From the IMG/VR virus record IMGVR_UViG_3300036771_000052, positions 1 to 64,000 of that record: DNA of 64,000 nucleotides. One strand, given 5' to 3'. Positions 3,742 to 53,531 of this stretch are shown here, one piece after another. The position numbers and the translations under genes are program-made. The notes under the pieces were generated by a model. It saw only the letters and a list, made by a program, of their open reading frames with translations. It did no database searches and was not told the origin of the DNA. This stretch comes from a virus. The first letter of the stretch is position 1; the number at the start of each line of letters is the position of its first letter.

Positions 3742-3778
3742 TGTCTTTCTCTTTTCTCTCGGAAAAACCATTCGGCGA

Positions 3779-3797
3779 CCCACCCCTAACGGGTGGG
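3779..3797 (-). terminator. Intergenic hairpin
   Basis: CCCACCC/GGGTGGG perfect 7-bp stem with a 5-base loop between 3823-4365 and 3400-3741; not followed by a T tract. Confidence 0.45.
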
Positions 3798-6039: not shown

Positions 6040-6615
6040 CTAGACGGCGTGTTTTTCGAGGTAGTTGGCGGCTTTTTCGAGTAGTTCTGGGTTGTCGTTG
6101 TAGTAGCCTAGCATGCTGTTGCAGTTGTTGCAGAGTAGTTCTCTGGTTTGGTTTGTGGTGTGGTCGTGGTCGACGGCTAGGCGTTTAATTTTCCCGTTGA
6201 GAGTCGCGGTTTCGGGTTGTTGGCAGATGGCGCAGAGGTTGTTTTGGTGTTCGGCCATCTGATTGTATTGTTGTTTGGATAGTCCTGTGCGTTTGGCGTG
6301 CTGTCGTAGTGGTGCGTGTTCGGGTCCGCAGTAGTTTTTGCGTCGGTCGGTGAGTGCTGTTCCGCATGAACATCGCTTGGGTGGTGTTGTTTTTTGGCTG
6401 GGTCGGTGTTCGGGTCGGCAGTAGGTTTTTGGTCGTCCTTCCTTGGTGTTGAGGGGGATGGTGGCGCCGCATCGGCACTTGGCTGGTTCAGCGGTTTGCG
6501 CTTGTTCCCAGAGTTGGGTGGCGCGTTGGCGGCTGATGTCGAGGCGTTTGGCGATGGTGCCGTAAGAGTCTCCTTGTTTACGCCACTTGAGGATTTGTCG
6601 TGAGCGTAGCGGCAG
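6040..6615 (-). CDS. Endonuclease VII-type protein with HTH, start unclear
   Basis: The C-terminus has the endonuclease VII/HNH pattern CAICQQ ... LAVDHDHTTNQTRELLCNNCN ... LGYYNDNPELLEKAANYLEK. Before it are two C-x-C-G zinc motifs and a helix-turn-helix (YGTIAKRLDISRQRATQLW). The frame is open to 6927, wholly overlapping the upstream endonuclease gene, and has no ATG, GTG or TTG near the start of the domain; 6615 (a CTG codon) is arbitrary. A +1 frameshift from 6578-6925 or a disabling indel would both explain this. Related enzymes are mobile homing-type nucleases. Confidence 0.65.
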   Translation of the reverse strand: MPLRSRQILKWRKQGDSYGTIAKRLDISRQRATQLWEQAQTAEPAKCRCGATIPLNTKEGRPKTYCRPEHRPSQKTTPPKRCSCGTALTDRRKNYCGPEHAPLRQHAKRTGLSKQQYNQMAEHQNNLCAICQQPETATLNGKIKRLAVDHDHTTNQTRELLCNNCNSMLGYYNDNPELLEKAANYLEKHAV

Positions 6616-6925
6616 TCGTGTGTTTTCTGAGGTAGCAGGCTGCTGCTCGGAGGGTGTTGGGGTTGTCTTTGGCGTATCCGAGTCCGCGGTTGCAGTTGCC
6701 GCATAGGAGGTCTCGGGTCTTGTTGGTTGTGTGGCAGTGGTCGATGTGGAGTCGACGACTGCCAGGGTTGGTCTTGCCGCAGATGGCGCAGAGATGCCTC
6801 TGTTTGGCCGCCATTTGGTCGTAGAGCTTCTGGCGAGCCTTGGCCGCTCTCTCACATTGGGGACAGGGTCGTTGAGGCTTAGCGGTCGCGTCAGGCCGTT
6901 TACATGTTTTGCAGGTGTATCGCAC
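6578..6925 (-). CDS. Endonuclease VII-type HNH nuclease
   Basis: A C-x2-C pair at the N-terminus (CKTCKRP, then CPQCERAAKARQKLYDQM) precedes the nuclease core: LCAICGK ... LHIDHCHTTNKTRDLLCGNCN ... LGYAKDNPNTLRAAACYL. This matches the endonuclease VII family; phage members act as free-standing homing nucleases or package-site nickases. GTG start at 6925 with no ribosome-binding site; TTGACA at about 6950-6955 suggests a near-leaderless transcript. The second gene at 6040 is a tandem paralogue. Confidence 0.75.
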   Translation of the reverse strand: MRYTCKTCKRPDATAKPQRPCPQCERAAKARQKLYDQMAAKQRHLCAICGKTNPGSRRLHIDHCHTTNKTRDLLCGNCNRGLGYAKDNPNTLRAAACYLRKHTTAATLTTNPQVA

Positions 6926-6951
6926 ACATCGTCAAGCTAATGTGTGTGCTG

Positions 6952-7398
6952 TCAAATTCTTTTATTGGGGTGGTTTTTTTTGGTGTGGAGTTTGCCGGCG
7001 CCTTCTTTGCGGTAGCAGCCGCAGGAGAATGTTTTGTGGTTTTTGAGGTTTTTGATGGTGACGTTGACTTGGTTTCCGCAGGTGCAGAGGCATTGGATGG
7101 TTCGGTCGTGGCCGGGTTGGGGTGTTCCGGTGACGGTGAGTCGTCCGAAGATGTCGCCGATTTCGGGGTCGCCGTCGCGTTGGGTGGTGGCTTTGGGTCG
7201 TTGTTTTGTCCAGCTGGCGGATTTGAGGATGTCGTCTCGTAGGCAGCCGCAGGATTGGGTTTGTCCGGATGTGAGGTGGTTGCGCCACACGGTTTTTATG
7301 GTTCCGCAGTCGCAGTAGACTTCTACTTTGTCGCCTTGTTGGTTGGGGTCGAGGACGGTGAGTCGTCCGTAGCGGGTGTTGAGGGTCCAGTTGGCCAT
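6952..7398 (-). CDS. Tandem zinc-motif DNA-binding protein, homing-endonuclease type
   Basis: Two copies of one module lie at about residues 8-55 and 85-135: YGRLTVLDP ... CDCG ... V-x4-HLTSGQTQSCGC, and FGRLTVTGT ... CTCG ... V-x4-NLKNHKTFSCGC. The GRLTV/C-x-C-G/SCGC pattern is common in phage homing nucleases and is taken to be a zinc-stabilised DNA-binding unit. No nuclease motif is present, so this may be a DNA-binding remnant or partner of the two endonuclease VII-type genes next to it. Confidence 0.7.
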   Translation of the reverse strand: MANWTLNTRYGRLTVLDPNQQGDKVEVYCDCGTIKTVWRNHLTSGQTQSCGCLRDDILKSASWTKQRPKATTQRDGDPEIGDIFGRLTVTGTPQPGHDRTIQCLCTCGNQVNVTIKNLKNHKTFSCGCYRKEGAGKLHTKKNHPNKRI

Positions 7399-7739
7399 CC
7401 CGAGAGTGTACCATGCTTGTCGTCGGATGTGGTGGCAGGGACCACCCCGAGAGAGGTGATGGTCCCTGCCGGTCTAGAAGACGGGGACAGGACACGCCTT
7501 CCGCGTACCTGGAGACCATCCTGGATCGTCACGGCACCCCGCCGCTCCTCGGGACCGCGTCTCCTGGTCCGGAACCCCCTCTAGGCGGTTCGTGGGGAAG
7601 CCTGCCACACCCTGTGAGCTGTGTCTATGGGTCAAATGTCGCCGATTTTAGGGTCCGTTCGGTCGTGTGTTAGTGTCTGCGGGTCTCCCGGGATGGCTCC
7701 GACTCAACGGTCCGGGGTGGGGAGGCGCGGAGCAGAGGG
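7399..7739. other. Non-coding gap with hairpins
   Basis: No gene is supported in 340 bases. GGCAGGGACCA (7434-7444) pairs with TGGTCCCTGCC (7460-7470), an 11-bp stem placed downstream of the leftward operon and upstream of the homing-type gene. Smaller hairpins (GGACC/GGTCC near 7551-7568; GAACC/GGTTC near 7570-7590) follow. Likely terminator(s) and a promoter for the nuclease genes. Confidence 0.5.
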
Positions 7740-8222
7740 TCAACCCTCTTGTCTTCCCCAACGTCCCGGGGGACGTCCCGAACAGTCACATTTGGTACAT
7801 CTGGGGTTGACGGGGGTTCCGTCGTCTCGCCATCTTCCGTCGCTGTGATCCACCAAAGAATGTCCACATGGGATCGGAGCGGGACACGCTAGACTTCCCG
7901 TGTAGCGGTCCTCCCGGCGGCGTTCCGCCTCATACACTCGTGGGGGGAGGGTTTGTTCGTCTACGTGGCGTTGAGCGGCTCTCAGAGCCATCTTTTTCCA
8001 TGGGTAGGGAGCTGTGGTGTATCCGCAGATGCAGTTGGCTTGCCATAGGGTTGCTTCGACGGTTTTCCCGTTGTATTTCGCGGGGAGTCGGATTTGGTAG
8101 GGTTCGCCGGGTTGATGTTTTTTCGTGGTGATTTCCCCGGGAAACCACTCTAGTTTACTTCTGTCTTCCCACCAGCGGCCCTGGCAGTCGTCGCATCCGC
8201 AGTTTTTCTCGTGATCTGTCAC
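7740..8222 (-). CDS. Cys-rich zinc-motif phage protein (160 aa)
   Basis: Function unknown. Three Cys clusters are visible: CGCDDC at residues 8-13, CICGYT near 65, and CPAPIPCGH ... CTKCDCSGRPPG at the C-terminus, suggesting two or three zinc sites. It is the last gene of the leftward 7740-13579 operon, 53 bases below the gene at 8276-8452. Confidence 0.72.
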   Translation of the reverse strand: MTDHEKNCGCDDCQGRWWEDRSKLEWFPGEITTKKHQPGEPYQIRLPAKYNGKTVEATLWQANCICGYTTAPYPWKKMALRAAQRHVDEQTLPPRVYEAERRREDRYTGSLACPAPIPCGHSLVDHSDGRWRDDGTPVNPRCTKCDCSGRPPGRWGRQEG

Positions 8223-51333: not shown

Positions 51334-51352
51334 ACGTGCTCCTGAAGAGAGG

Positions 51353-51385
51353 GACCCCCCGCCACGTATCCTGTGACGGGGGGTC
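51353..51385 (-). terminator. Hairpin upstream of HicB-like gene
   Basis: GACCCCCCG/CGGGGGGTC with inner CAC/GTG. On the minus strand it follows the tRNA-like pair and precedes the HicB-like gene by 20 bases, so it may end the RNA transcript or act as a leader structure. Confidence 0.6.
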
Positions 51386-51488
51386 ATATTTGGACTCGGC
51401 AGCGAGTCGATTTAACATGCGGTGCTGCCATTCCGATGTAACTGCGGAGAATCGCCACCACTGTTCACAACAGGTCAGCATGTAATGT

Positions 51489-51559
51489 CAGCGCGTGTTG
51501 CCATTGCACCACGGGACCATGTGGAGGTCCCGCCGGGGGTCGAACCCGGAATCTCGCTT
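51489..51559 (-). tRNA. Permuted tRNA-like gene 2 (3' half before 5' half)
   Basis: Read on the minus strand: AAGCG-AGATT, T-arm CCGGG-TTCGACC-CCCGG, acceptor 3' strand CGGGACC, T, CCA, three bases (CAT), then acceptor 5' strand GGTCCCG, TG, D-arm GTGCAATGGCAACAC, G and CGCTG. The acceptor strands pair 7/7 and the variable loop is 5 bases. CGCT pairs with AGCG of the upstream half as an anticodon stem, and GACAT/ATGTC and CCTGTTGT/ACGACAGG extend it. The anticodon cannot be assigned. No 5' half lies upstream and no matching 3' half downstream. Confidence 0.68.
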
Positions 51560-51640
51560 AGACATAGCCTGTCGTACTCAGATGCGGCGGATGCAGTTGT
51601 CGAGAATCTTAGAGCGTTCCTGAAGAATCTCGGGTTCCTC

Positions 51641-51748
51641 GCCTGCGTCTCTACCAGTTGGACTACCATGGCTTGTGAAGTGTTTCTTTGAGTTCCATCA
51701 CGAGTGATGGAGTGCCACGGGTAGGTCTCGAACCTACACTGTACAGAC
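51641..51748 (-). tRNA. Permuted tRNA-like gene 1 (3' half before 5' half)
   Basis: Read on the minus strand: GTCTG, T-arm GTAGG-TTCGAGA-CCTAC, acceptor 3' strand CCGTGGC and A; then about 41 bases with a CCATCA-CTCG-TGATGG hairpin; then acceptor 5' strand GCCATGG, TA, D-arm GTCCAACTGGTAGAGAC, G and CAGGC. Acceptor strands pair 7/7 (one G-U) and CAGGC pairs with GTCTG (one G-U). Upstream, AGACTCGGTACTGC/GCAGTACCGAGTCT (51745-51805) is a perfect 14-bp hairpin that competes with the anticodon stem. No CCA is encoded after the discriminator. Confidence 0.68.
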
Positions 51749-51814
51749 TCGGTACTGCTTTTTCTGGAGGATTTTCATCTTGCGCTCTTGCGCAGTACCG
51801 AGTCTAACACAGTC

Positions 51815-52570
51815 CTAGCCGAAAATGTAGTTCAGAACCTTCTCACCGATCACCTGTTCGGGTGATTCGATGCGCTTCGCTTCCTCCTTCGCCGCATGGA
51901 CAGCGTTCTTCAGCTTCGTGATACGAGTGAGAATCTGCTCCCGCTCCGAAACAGGCATCGCACCGCTGAACTTCACCCGAGTCCATTTGCCTTCAACGAC
52001 GACTTCCTGGATGGTGACGAACTGTCCGGGTTGTTTATCCGTCGGCTGGAACACGGTGACCACTTTCGGCTGTTGCGTCTGCCGCAAAGTAACCACCGGC
52101 TTCGACTTGTACACCCCCCGGCCGGAATCCTCCAACGTCCACTCGGTAGACGCCGAAAGCGTGGGGATGCGGGTGGCGAACGCTCGCAAATCGTCGAGCC
52201 TCTTATCCAGCCACAACAGATACGGCACCGGCGCGGCCTTGATGAGAGTCACCTCACCCACCACCACATCAGCCTGCGCTTTACCTGATGAGTTGGTGAA
52301 ATCTCTAGCCGCGGTGACGTCGAACAGTTCCGCCAACTGCTCCCTGGTGGCGTCGATCATCTCCTTCACTGTGGACTGGACTCGTTGTTCCTCAGGTACG
52401 AGTTCGAGTCCACCTTCCGCCGCCGGGGTGTACTCGCCGCGCATACCTTCCATCAATGCGGTCGGCTTGTCCAGCGCGTGATACCTTTCGGTCAAGCTCC
52501 GCATAACGGTTTTGCGGAGCTCACCTTCCTTCCCGACGATCGCGCCGAGAGTTTTCGGTTTCCCTGCCAT
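51815..52570 (-). CDS. Conserved phage protein, DUF7873-like (251 aa)
   Basis: MAGKPKTLGAIVGKEGELRK, SLTERYHALDKPTALMEGMR, AAPVPYLLWLDKRLDDLRAF and SEREQILTRITKLKNAVHAA match a protein common in actinophage genomes (as I recall it, DUF7873). It is soluble and alpha/beta; no enzymatic motif is known. AAGGAACACAG precedes the ATG. Its stop lies ten bases from the permuted tRNA-like pair. Confidence 0.72.
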   Translation of the reverse strand: MAGKPKTLGAIVGKEGELRKTVMRSLTERYHALDKPTALMEGMRGEYTPAAEGGLELVPEEQRVQSTVKEMIDATREQLAELFDVTAARDFTNSSGKAQADVVVGEVTLIKAAPVPYLLWLDKRLDDLRAFATRIPTLSASTEWTLEDSGRGVYKSKPVVTLRQTQQPKVVTVFQPTDKQPGQFVTIQEVVVEGKWTRVKFSGAMPVSEREQILTRITKLKNAVHAAKEEAKRIESPEQVIGEKVLNYIFG

Positions 52571-52651: not shown

Positions 52652-52939
52652 ATGGCCAGCCTTTACCCCCGAAGGAATAGCGGAAAAGGAGGTTTTGACG
52701 TCCGCCGCCGAAGTCTTGGTACCTACACAGCACACATGTACGATGCATACATGGGTGAAGACATGTCACACCTCGACGGTTACCCGGAGGTGTTTGTCCG
52801 CGCGCTCGAACAATGCCTAAACGTCCAAGCGGGACTAGATGCGGTGCTTAACGCCGCGAAAACACATACAACCGATCATGCATCCCCGACCACTGAGGAA
52901 TCTCCACACCCGCAACCTCCTCAAACAGAGGTTCCTTAG
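52652..52939 (+). CDS. Possible rightward small gene (95 aa)
   Basis: Opposes the leftward genes, in the 277-base gap 52571-52847, and its end overlaps the methyltransferase gene antisense by 92 bases. MASLYPRRNSGKGGFDVRRR then MSHLDGYPEVFVRALEQCLN has protein-like composition and G/C third positions, but no proper ribosome-binding site. Unproven. Confidence 0.4.
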   Translation: MASLYPRRNSGKGGFDVRRRSLGTYTAHMYDAYMGEDMSHLDGYPEVFVRALEQCLNVQAGLDAVLNAAKTHTTDHASPTTEESPHPQPPQTEVP

Positions 52940-53531
52940 GACAATCACACGCTCCATCATGCCAACACGCGCCGGTCCCTAACAGAACATGCATCTTCGG
53001 ATCACCAGTACACCCCATACAACCTTCGCCAACATAAATGATCGTGTCACCGTCATACAGCTCCACCGTTTCATGTGGCCAATCCGCGTAGTGTTCCGGC
53101 CAACACATAAACAGTGTTCGTTCTCCCTTCCCCACCACATTGGTATGGTCGCCGGTGATGACTTCGGTGAAGGTTTCCTCGCGGAGGGTCCAGTCGGAGC
53201 CGGGTGGCGGGTTGATGTCATACGCCACCACATCCAACCCCCGCTCTCGGAGAAGAGAGGTCCAGTAGCCGGCTCCGGCGCCGATCTCGATCAAACCATT
53301 CGGGGAGTACTTGATGATCGTGTCCAAAGCTTCATCGTTGGGGATGGCCCACGACCATTGTTTCCGCATGCTCTGATAGTTGGCTTCCCCTTTAGACACG
53401 CATTCGTAACAGTATTCCTCGGGTGCTTTGAGGAGTCGTGTCATGACGGGGATGTGTTCCTTCTGATGCTCAAACATTTCTTGATAAGCATCGAGGTACG
53501 GATTCTTGGTTGCTACCGCTGTGTCAGTCAT
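52848..53531 (-). CDS. SAM-dependent methyltransferase-like protein
   Basis: Rossmann motif I LIEIGAGAGYWTSLLRERGL is followed by DVVAYDINPP (acidic residue after strand 2). The later part has YDGDTIIYVGEGCMGCTGDP and a Cys/His-rich patch (CWHDGACDCP). No DNA-methylase catalytic motif (DPPY or PC) is seen, so the substrate may be a small molecule or protein. Shares ATGA with the gene above. Confidence 0.8.
   Translation of the reverse strand: MTDTAVATKNPYLDAYQEMFEHQKEHIPVMTRLLKAPEEYCYECVSKGEANYQSMRKQWSWAIPNDEALDTIIKYSPNGLIEIGAGAGYWTSLLRERGLDVVAYDINPPPGSDWTLREETFTEVITGDHTNVVGKGERTLFMCWPEHYADWPHETVELYDGDTIIYVGEGCMGCTGDPKMHVLLGTGACWHDGACDCPKEPLFEEVAGVEIPQWSGMHDRLYVFSRR

Follow-up and report, generated by a model that had tools for sequence, protein, structure and literature searches.

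Two tRNA-like modules in one predicted structured RNA encoded beside DUF7873 in phages and bacteria

Do two sequences that read as tRNA genes with their halves in swapped order, on the minus strand of a 64,000-nucleotide stretch of viral DNA (here "the window," part of a virus record of 97,861 bases), encode tRNAs, or do they belong to something else? A sequence-only reading had described them as circularly permuted tRNA genes at 51489-51805, and the permuted order is indeed there: both modules read T-arm, 3′ acceptor strand, linker, 5′ acceptor strand, and D-arm, with canonical T-loops. The pairings that had been claimed also hold, as the acceptor strands pair 7/7 in module 1 (CCGTGGC with GCCATGG, one G-U) and 7/7 by Watson-Crick pairs in module 2 (CGGGACC with GGTCCCG), the anticodon-like stems pair 5/5 in module 1 (CAGGC with GTCTG, one G-U) and over four pairs in module 2 (CGCT with AGCG; a fifth pair would be G-A), and only the three bases CAT separate TCCA from GGTCCCG in module 2. 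A strict detector (T-stem 5/5, acceptor 7/7 within 60 nt, and a D-arm) matched the minus strand of the window twice and the plus strand never, with no match on either strand of 100 dinucleotide shuffles of the 64 kb. ARAGORN called no tRNA in the window, and an Rfam scan of the window returned no match at gathering thresholds.

The modules are nevertheless not lone permuted tRNA genes: they make up two domains of a single predicted RNA of ~440 nt, encoded immediately 3′ of a DUF7873 gene. The extent given earlier contains both modules but is too short for the feature, which runs from ~51794 to 51353; the minimum-energy fold of 51350-51800 has a z of -4.91. The gene and the parts of the RNA element are as follows.

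51815-52570, minus strand: DUF7873 gene, 251 aa (Pfam PF25283, 221.6 bits, E = 1.7e-65, residues 8-250)
51353-51794, minus strand: whole noncoding RNA element, P1 hairpin to 3′ hairpin, delimited from sequence (transcript ends putative)
51781-51794, minus strand: P1 hairpin, GCGC..GCGC type, from sequence (helix 1 of the family alignment)
51617-51781, minus strand: module 1 domain, match of covariance model R2 (56.4 bits, E = 1.1e-9, model 1-143 of 143)
51744-51748, minus strand: module 1 anticodon-like stem, strand before the T-arm, GTCTG, from sequence
51721-51737, minus strand: module 1 T-arm, from sequence
51714-51720, minus strand: module 1 acceptor, 3′ strand CCGTGGC, pairing 7/7 with 51666-51672
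51666-51672, minus strand: module 1 acceptor, 5′ strand GCCATGG, from sequence
51647-51665, minus strand: module 1 D-arm, from sequence and bases 15 and 48
51641-51645, minus strand: module 1 anticodon-like stem, strand after the D-arm, CAGGC, partner of 51744-51748
51601-51631, minus strand: inter-module region, the conserved core (3′ strand of P2) of the family alignment, divergent in the window
51451-51589, minus strand: module 2 domain, match of covariance model R1 (71.5 bits, E = 2.1e-17, model 1-140 of 140)
51461-51578, minus strand: YrlA (RF02553) match inside the module 2 domain (25.1 bits, E = 0.0075, model 1-114 of 114)
51584-51589, minus strand: P4, 5′ strand, with its 3′ strand at 51453-51458 (R1 alignment)
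51570-51576, minus strand: P3, 5′ strand, with its 3′ strand at 51466-51472 (R1 alignment, 7/7 standard pairs)
51533-51549, minus strand: module 2 T-arm, from sequence
51526-51532, minus strand: module 2 acceptor, 3′ strand CGGGACC, from sequence
51519-51525, minus strand: module 2 TCCA (51522-51525) plus CAT, a short acceptor-closing loop, from sequence
51512-51518, minus strand: module 2 acceptor, 5′ strand GGTCCCG, from sequence
51495-51511, minus strand: module 2 D-arm, from sequence and bases 15 and 48
51353-51385, minus strand: 3′ hairpin with the constant loop motif GGNTA (GGATA in the window), from sequence

The DUF7873 gene ends 20 bases upstream of the P1 hairpin, on the same strand as the RNA. 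At the other end, the 3′ hairpin may double as the transcription end; it was not listed by a terminator scan, and a T run is absent. The window's module 1 and core are divergent from the family described below.

The virus record had no nucleotide match among 50,697 phage records (a collection that may omit the record itself), and a DNA pattern made from module 2 matched one other viral contig (L003), which has the same permuted arrangement in otherwise different sequence. The gene upstream of its modules belongs to the DUF7873 family, with 35% identity to the window protein. Homologues of DUF7873 were found by tblastn in 49 phage records, 13 of which were examined in detail, and the same order, which the sequence-only reading had proposed to look for in related phages, does recur there: the strict detector was positive in Mimi, Ziko, Keelan, Phendrix, NiceHouse, Fryberger, and Racecar, and a module was detected in Rhizobium phage RHph_Y1_11 once six pairs were allowed. 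Pam2, PA-SR01, and a Microcoleus phage each gave a full-length match to covariance model R1 or R2 (see below), and two Vibrio phage loci gave weak partial R1 matches only (21.1 bits in L015, 19.7 bits in L017), with one module visible by eye. The annotations of the phage records examined leave the second module free of any CDS or tRNA, with one exception: in Keelan, a hypothetical CDS (6259-6504) overlaps it. In Rhodococcus phage NiceHouse, the RNA and a tRNA-Lys are followed by a gene for a Band 7/SPFH membrane protein (PF01145; L011 6365-7237).

Scans with a DUF7873 alignment revealed at least 323 relatives in viral contigs and at least 554 in bacterial genome contigs, and 80 of each were kept. 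At least one module was found by the strict detector at 54/80 viral and 53/80 genome loci (107/160), with every module on the DUF7873 strand and none on the opposite strand. A relaxed detector, applied to 700 nt downstream of 174 DUF7873 loci, found two tandem modules at 122, one at 41, none at 10, and two out of tandem range at one. The genome loci are mostly from Actinomycetota (Nonomuraea, Nocardia, Streptomyces, and others), and a few come from metagenome bins named Myxococcota, Polyangiaceae, Anaerolineales, and Armatimonadetes. Across 150 genomes of one actinobacterial order (that of G002, the genome of locus L100), DUF7873 is present in 47, i.e., 43 at ≥297 bits and four with weak or broken matches (G274, G307, G311, and G322), and R1 matches at E ≤ 1e-9 in exactly the 43 genomes with strong DUF7873, lying 145-263 nt downstream of the gene (median 201) on the same strand. 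Among 246 genomes of the phylum, six carry DUF7873 and all six of these the RNA, with a partial R1 match in two more, and in whole-genome R1 searches the best match was the DUF7873-linked RNA in 8/8 genomes. Since the pair is found in bacterial chromosomes with unrelated neighbors (10 proteins at six loci, from unrelated families or none), the RNA and DUF7873 are not only a phage device.

For structural alignment, 71 of the 174 loci passed a filter on T-arm, spacing, and end motif, and 58 were left after near-copies were removed. Their consensus comprises the P1 hairpin, a long P2 bearing module 1, P3 bearing module 2, and P4 outside P3. Over 78 pairs and 58 RNAs, 90.8% of the cells hold standard pairs, versus 74.9% when shuffled and 36-41% with slid partners; two-sided changes occur in 64 of the 78 pairs, and the covariation score is 0.471 versus 0.183. 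T-stem pairing in this alignment is selected because the loci were chosen by their T-arms, and the acceptors, D-arms, and P2-P4 are unselected. Loss of acceptor pairing in relatives had been named as grounds for abandoning the modules, and it did not occur: both acceptor stems are 99.5% paired across the 58 loci, with two-sided changes in 7/7 pairs of each (14/14 in total), and the stem under module 2 (helix 13, P3) has two-sided changes in 9/9 pairs. These results support selection on the module pairings. P1 is weak, with 69.3% of cells paired, the second-weakest helix. A 3′ hairpin of at least eight pairs with a GGNTA loop occurs at 115/174 loci, including the window, versus 2 in one mononucleotide shuffle each. 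Further, YTNA recurs at exact 6-base spacing at least three times upstream of module 1 at 45/116 loci (0.0 expected by shuffle); this hexamer repeat is one strand of P2 (e.g., L100, ~3760-3790), and the window is without it.

Within the modules, we scored the tRNA-type tertiary pair between bases 15 and 48, positions on which the module detector did not select. Of the 117 second modules that allowed scoring, 105 have A-U and 12 have G-C, with no exception (five of 122 were unscored, base 14 not being read as A), and the first modules have A-U in 111, G-C in four, and A-C exceptions in six of 121 scored. In the window, bases 15 and 48 read as A and T in module 1, i.e., an A15-U48 tertiary pair, and likewise as A and T in module 2. 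Comparative sequence analysis shows a conserved RNA family with a defined structure, a tRNA-like tertiary pair, and a tie to DUF7873, and it predicts that the modules fold like tRNA.

Covariance models further delineate the family. R1 (module 2, P3, and P4) was built from 40 sequences, leaving out the window and the named phages except Phendrix, and it matched the window at full length (71.5 bits, E = 2.1e-17), L003 at 60.1 bits, and, at full length with at least 46.9 bits, 64 of the 75 DUF7873 sources outside training, the window included, some of these 75 being close relatives of training loci. The held-out sources below that mark were L013, L014, L015, L016, L017, L036 (a locus cut by a contig end), L059, L071, L079, L082, and L124. 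R2, the module 1 model, was also built without the window and matched it at full length (56.4 bits, E = 1.1e-9), as it did 26/33 held-out sources at 49 bits or more. The main false positives of R1 are tandem ordinary tRNAs (44.6 bits, partial, in L002), and a full-length R1 match of 32.2 bits elsewhere in the window's genome (L005 15867-16005) was set aside as two tandem tRNA-Met genes. Near its other end, the same record carries four ordinary tRNA genes (Met, Met, Pro, and Asn; G000 96850-97740, i.e., L005 15850-16740).

The window protein scores 221.6 bits against a Pfam cut-off of 27 bits for DUF7873 and has no PHROGs, NCBIfam, or PADLOC match. Its AlphaFold2 model (pLDDT 94.8, pTM 0.83) predicts four long helices and a long beta hairpin. 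Structure searches with this model returned no known RNA-binding fold and no convincing relative of known structure: the top PDB rows from Foldseek were Cas7 chains (best E 0.012), but with TM-scores of ~0.13, so a Cas7-like assignment was rejected, and the best VIA-align match (Z 6.2 at 13.9 Å) was not trusted as evidence of another known fold. Ro60 chains are missing among the best rows of both lists, which excludes nothing. A crAss-like phage protein in BFVD (A0A7M1RW91; probability 0.98, TM 0.46/0.62, E 0.11) may be a distant relative sharing the predicted DUF7873 fold. The family as a whole is not especially basic (median pI 6.2, n = 86), and, with no known RNA-binding fold either, it is the linkage to the RNA alone that points to DUF7873 as an RNA-binding protein. 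The next gene upstream (window 52848-53531, minus strand; phrog_19090) has a weak PF13489 methyltransferase match below the cut-off.

We consider it probable that the locus is a two-gene ribonucleoprotein (RNP) unit, in which the DUF7873 gene is followed by a ~350-440-nt structured noncoding RNA with two tRNA-like modules. A new tRNA-mimic RNP is the best reading of the sequence comparisons, with a function that can be proposed from them, and we weighed it against several alternatives, beginning with known RNAs of the same topology. The precedents listed earlier for a permuted order did not name the bacterial Y RNA YrlA, which shares that topology. As described, YrlA carries its module on a 5′/3′ stem that binds Rsr, its tRNA-like domain binds PNPase, and bacterial Y RNAs are 90-150 nt long (PMC8394870); the YrlA crystal structure (6CU1) superposes on tRNA only with circular permutation (PMC11472068), and Y RNAs have been reported from mycobacteriophages (PMC12282133, citing Chen 2014). 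In a 1-kb scan, the YrlA model (RF02553) aligned over all 114 positions with the window's module 2 domain (25.1 bits, E = 0.0075), and in relatives it matched at full length in L010, L100, and L021 and over positions 23-85 in L108 (28-37 bits). The gathering score of 69 bits was not reached in any of 13 relatives (best of eight, 37.1 bits), and an unrelated match of 25.7 bits lies in the tRNA cluster of L010, so a score of 25 alone proves little and the weight comes from its position and from full-length alignment in several loci. Like YrlA, the window RNA has a permuted module of T-arm, closed acceptor, and D-arm on a stem formed by flanking strands; unlike YrlA, a single module of 90-150 nt, its family has two modules in ~350-440 nt (~440 nt in the window), adds P1, P2, P4, and the GGNTA-loop 3′ hairpin, and has DUF7873 rather than Ro60 as its partner gene. 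The element thus resembles a doubled bacterial Y RNA more than a scrambled tRNA gene.

Could it then be a divergent but ordinary Y RNA, bound by a host or phage Ro60, with DUF7873 a mere neighbor or accessory? The full-length YrlA alignment fits this, as does the distribution of TROVE (PF05731, Ro60/Rsr), which occurs in 67/150 genomes of the order, 29/43 with DUF7873 versus 38/107 others. We still regard it as unlikely, given YrlA scores of 25-37 bits, far under 69, and the absence of TROVE from 14 of the 43 genomes, in all of which DUF7873 and the RNA are inseparable, and from 23/27 DUF7873 virus records (present in four); none was found in the window's 97,861-base record or in the 11 named DUF7873 phages. 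Moreover, where both systems are present, R1 gives a second, weaker locus beside Ro60. Such second matches, in genomes that also hold the DUF7873 RNA (G281:C21, G283:C40, G348:C23, G358:C22, and G366:C20 at 49-56 bits; G002:C23 at 35 bits), share their contigs with TROVE genes ~0.1-1 kb away and are probably true Ro60-linked Y RNAs, which suggests two Y-type RNA systems in each of these six genomes.

Rather improbable, too, is a purely cis-acting role, in which the modules would be 3′-UTR structures controlling how the DUF7873 message is processed or how stable it is, as RNase P/Z substrates or in DUF7873 autoregulation. The RNA does always lie downstream of DUF7873 on the same strand, usually followed by the constant-loop hairpin, but its size, two modules, and extra conserved helices exceed the needs of a processing site. 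Against it as well stands Microcoleus phage My-WqHQDG (L014), where a gene with RRXRR and HNH Pfam domains (6175-7452), which we take to be IscB-like, is inserted between DUF7873 and the RNA, whose matches (R2, 49.1 bits at 7549-7684; R1, 30.6 bits at 7798-7923) are ~2 kb from DUF7873, so that close linkage of gene and RNA is not essential.

As for permuted tRNA genes proper, splicing or ligation at the anticodon loop and a cut between CCA and the 5′ end would yield two ordinary tRNAs, which we judge very improbable. Circularly permuted tRNA genes are known from algae and some archaea (and are mentioned in PMC10085705), and the window RNA shares their arm order (3′ half before 5′ half), the acceptor strands pairing 7/7, and paired anticodon-like stems beside acceptor, T-, and D-stems; further, TCCA follows the window's second acceptor, and in Gordonia phages Ziko and Keelan the sequence ahead of the break resembles a tRNA-Phe GAA loop. 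However, when an anticodon-like stem of at least four pairs was placed as the best of 12 offsets, hence generously, base 33 was U in only 24/109 first and 30/108 second modules with a placeable stem, and N-CCA follows the acceptor in only 35/122 first and 41/122 second modules; without conserved U33 and CCA, the modules are unlikely to be decoding tRNAs. In contrast to permuted tRNA genes, the acceptor end is usually closed by a loop (median 7 and 8 nt in modules 1 and 2), conserved helices (P2-P4) extend past the anticodon-like stem and fix both modules in one larger RNA, and the carriers are bacteria and phages. An RtcB ligase was not found in 26/27 DUF7873 virus records, and phages with the DUF7873 RNA usually carry ordinary tRNA genes besides. 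The earlier claim that these are tRNA genes, in the sense of maturing into tRNAs, is therefore not supported by the conserved features of this larger RNA.

Other systems were set aside: a two-piece tmRNA, which also has its 3′ acceptor strand before the 5′ strand, differs in that the window RNA family has a full D-stem (helices 7, 8, and 16) with a tRNA-type D-loop, and ARAGORN and Rfam gave no tmRNA match at the element; for a permuted self-splicing intron, considered because the halves flank conserved sequence, Rfam scans gave neither a group I nor a group II match. A standard tmRNA is encoded separately in phage Phendrix (L010 3063-3591). In many loci, the hexamer-repeat stretch upstream of module 1 would read as a short peptide of alternating basic and hydrophobic residues; such a peptide was set aside, as the window lacks the repeat, L122 and L127 differ by a frame-breaking indel (by eye), and this stretch forms pairs with the core. 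A literature search found no mention of DUF7873 and no report of such an RNA; Chen 2014, Sim 2020, Burroughs and Aravind 2016, and Wang 2018 lay outside it and may mention part.

Returning to the two-gene RNP unit, we propose that the RNA would be made as the 3′ portion of the DUF7873 transcript and then released, or kept as a stable RNA. In each module, T-arm, closed acceptor stem, and D-arm are mounted on a stem of their own at the place of the tRNA anticodon arm, hence the permuted gene order, as in YrlA. DUF7873 would bind the RNA, with the long stems or the constant-loop hairpin as the probable site, and the two tRNA-like ends, which could not be charged or cut at an anticodon loop, might hold tRNA-handling proteins (modification enzymes, nucleases such as PNPase, or tRNA-cutting defense enzymes), so that these are either directed or sponged. 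A scaffold or sponge held by DUF7873 is the likeliest function, and aminoacylation or decoding by the modules is not expected. A role in tRNA defense would fit the large tRNA arrays of phages that carry the DUF7873 RNA, as well as a published suggestion (PMC7790460) of an anticodon nuclease being inhibited by the tRNA-like domain of YrlA.

Evenly balanced, in our judgment, is the wider proposal that DUF7873 and its RNA form a separate class of tRNA-mimic RNP beside tmRNA-SmpB and Ro60-Y RNA, present in phages from several phyla of bacteria and fixed in the genomes of many actinobacteria, which in infecting phages may serve to decoy or recruit enzymes that cut or modify tRNA. To our knowledge, Y RNAs have been studied only with Ro60, and a Ro60-free relative would make the purpose of the Y RNA tRNA-like end testable in phages with simple genetics. 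The speculation on anticodon-nuclease inhibition for YrlA, as put forward in PMC7790460, would become a direct hypothesis for a phage. The conserved RNA would represent a large RNA class that is new and offers a ready genetic handle: it copies the tRNA elbow and acceptor twice, is encoded next to an unstudied protein across hundreds of phages and actinobacteria, and is missing both from Rfam, at the Rfam thresholds, and from the phage annotations examined.
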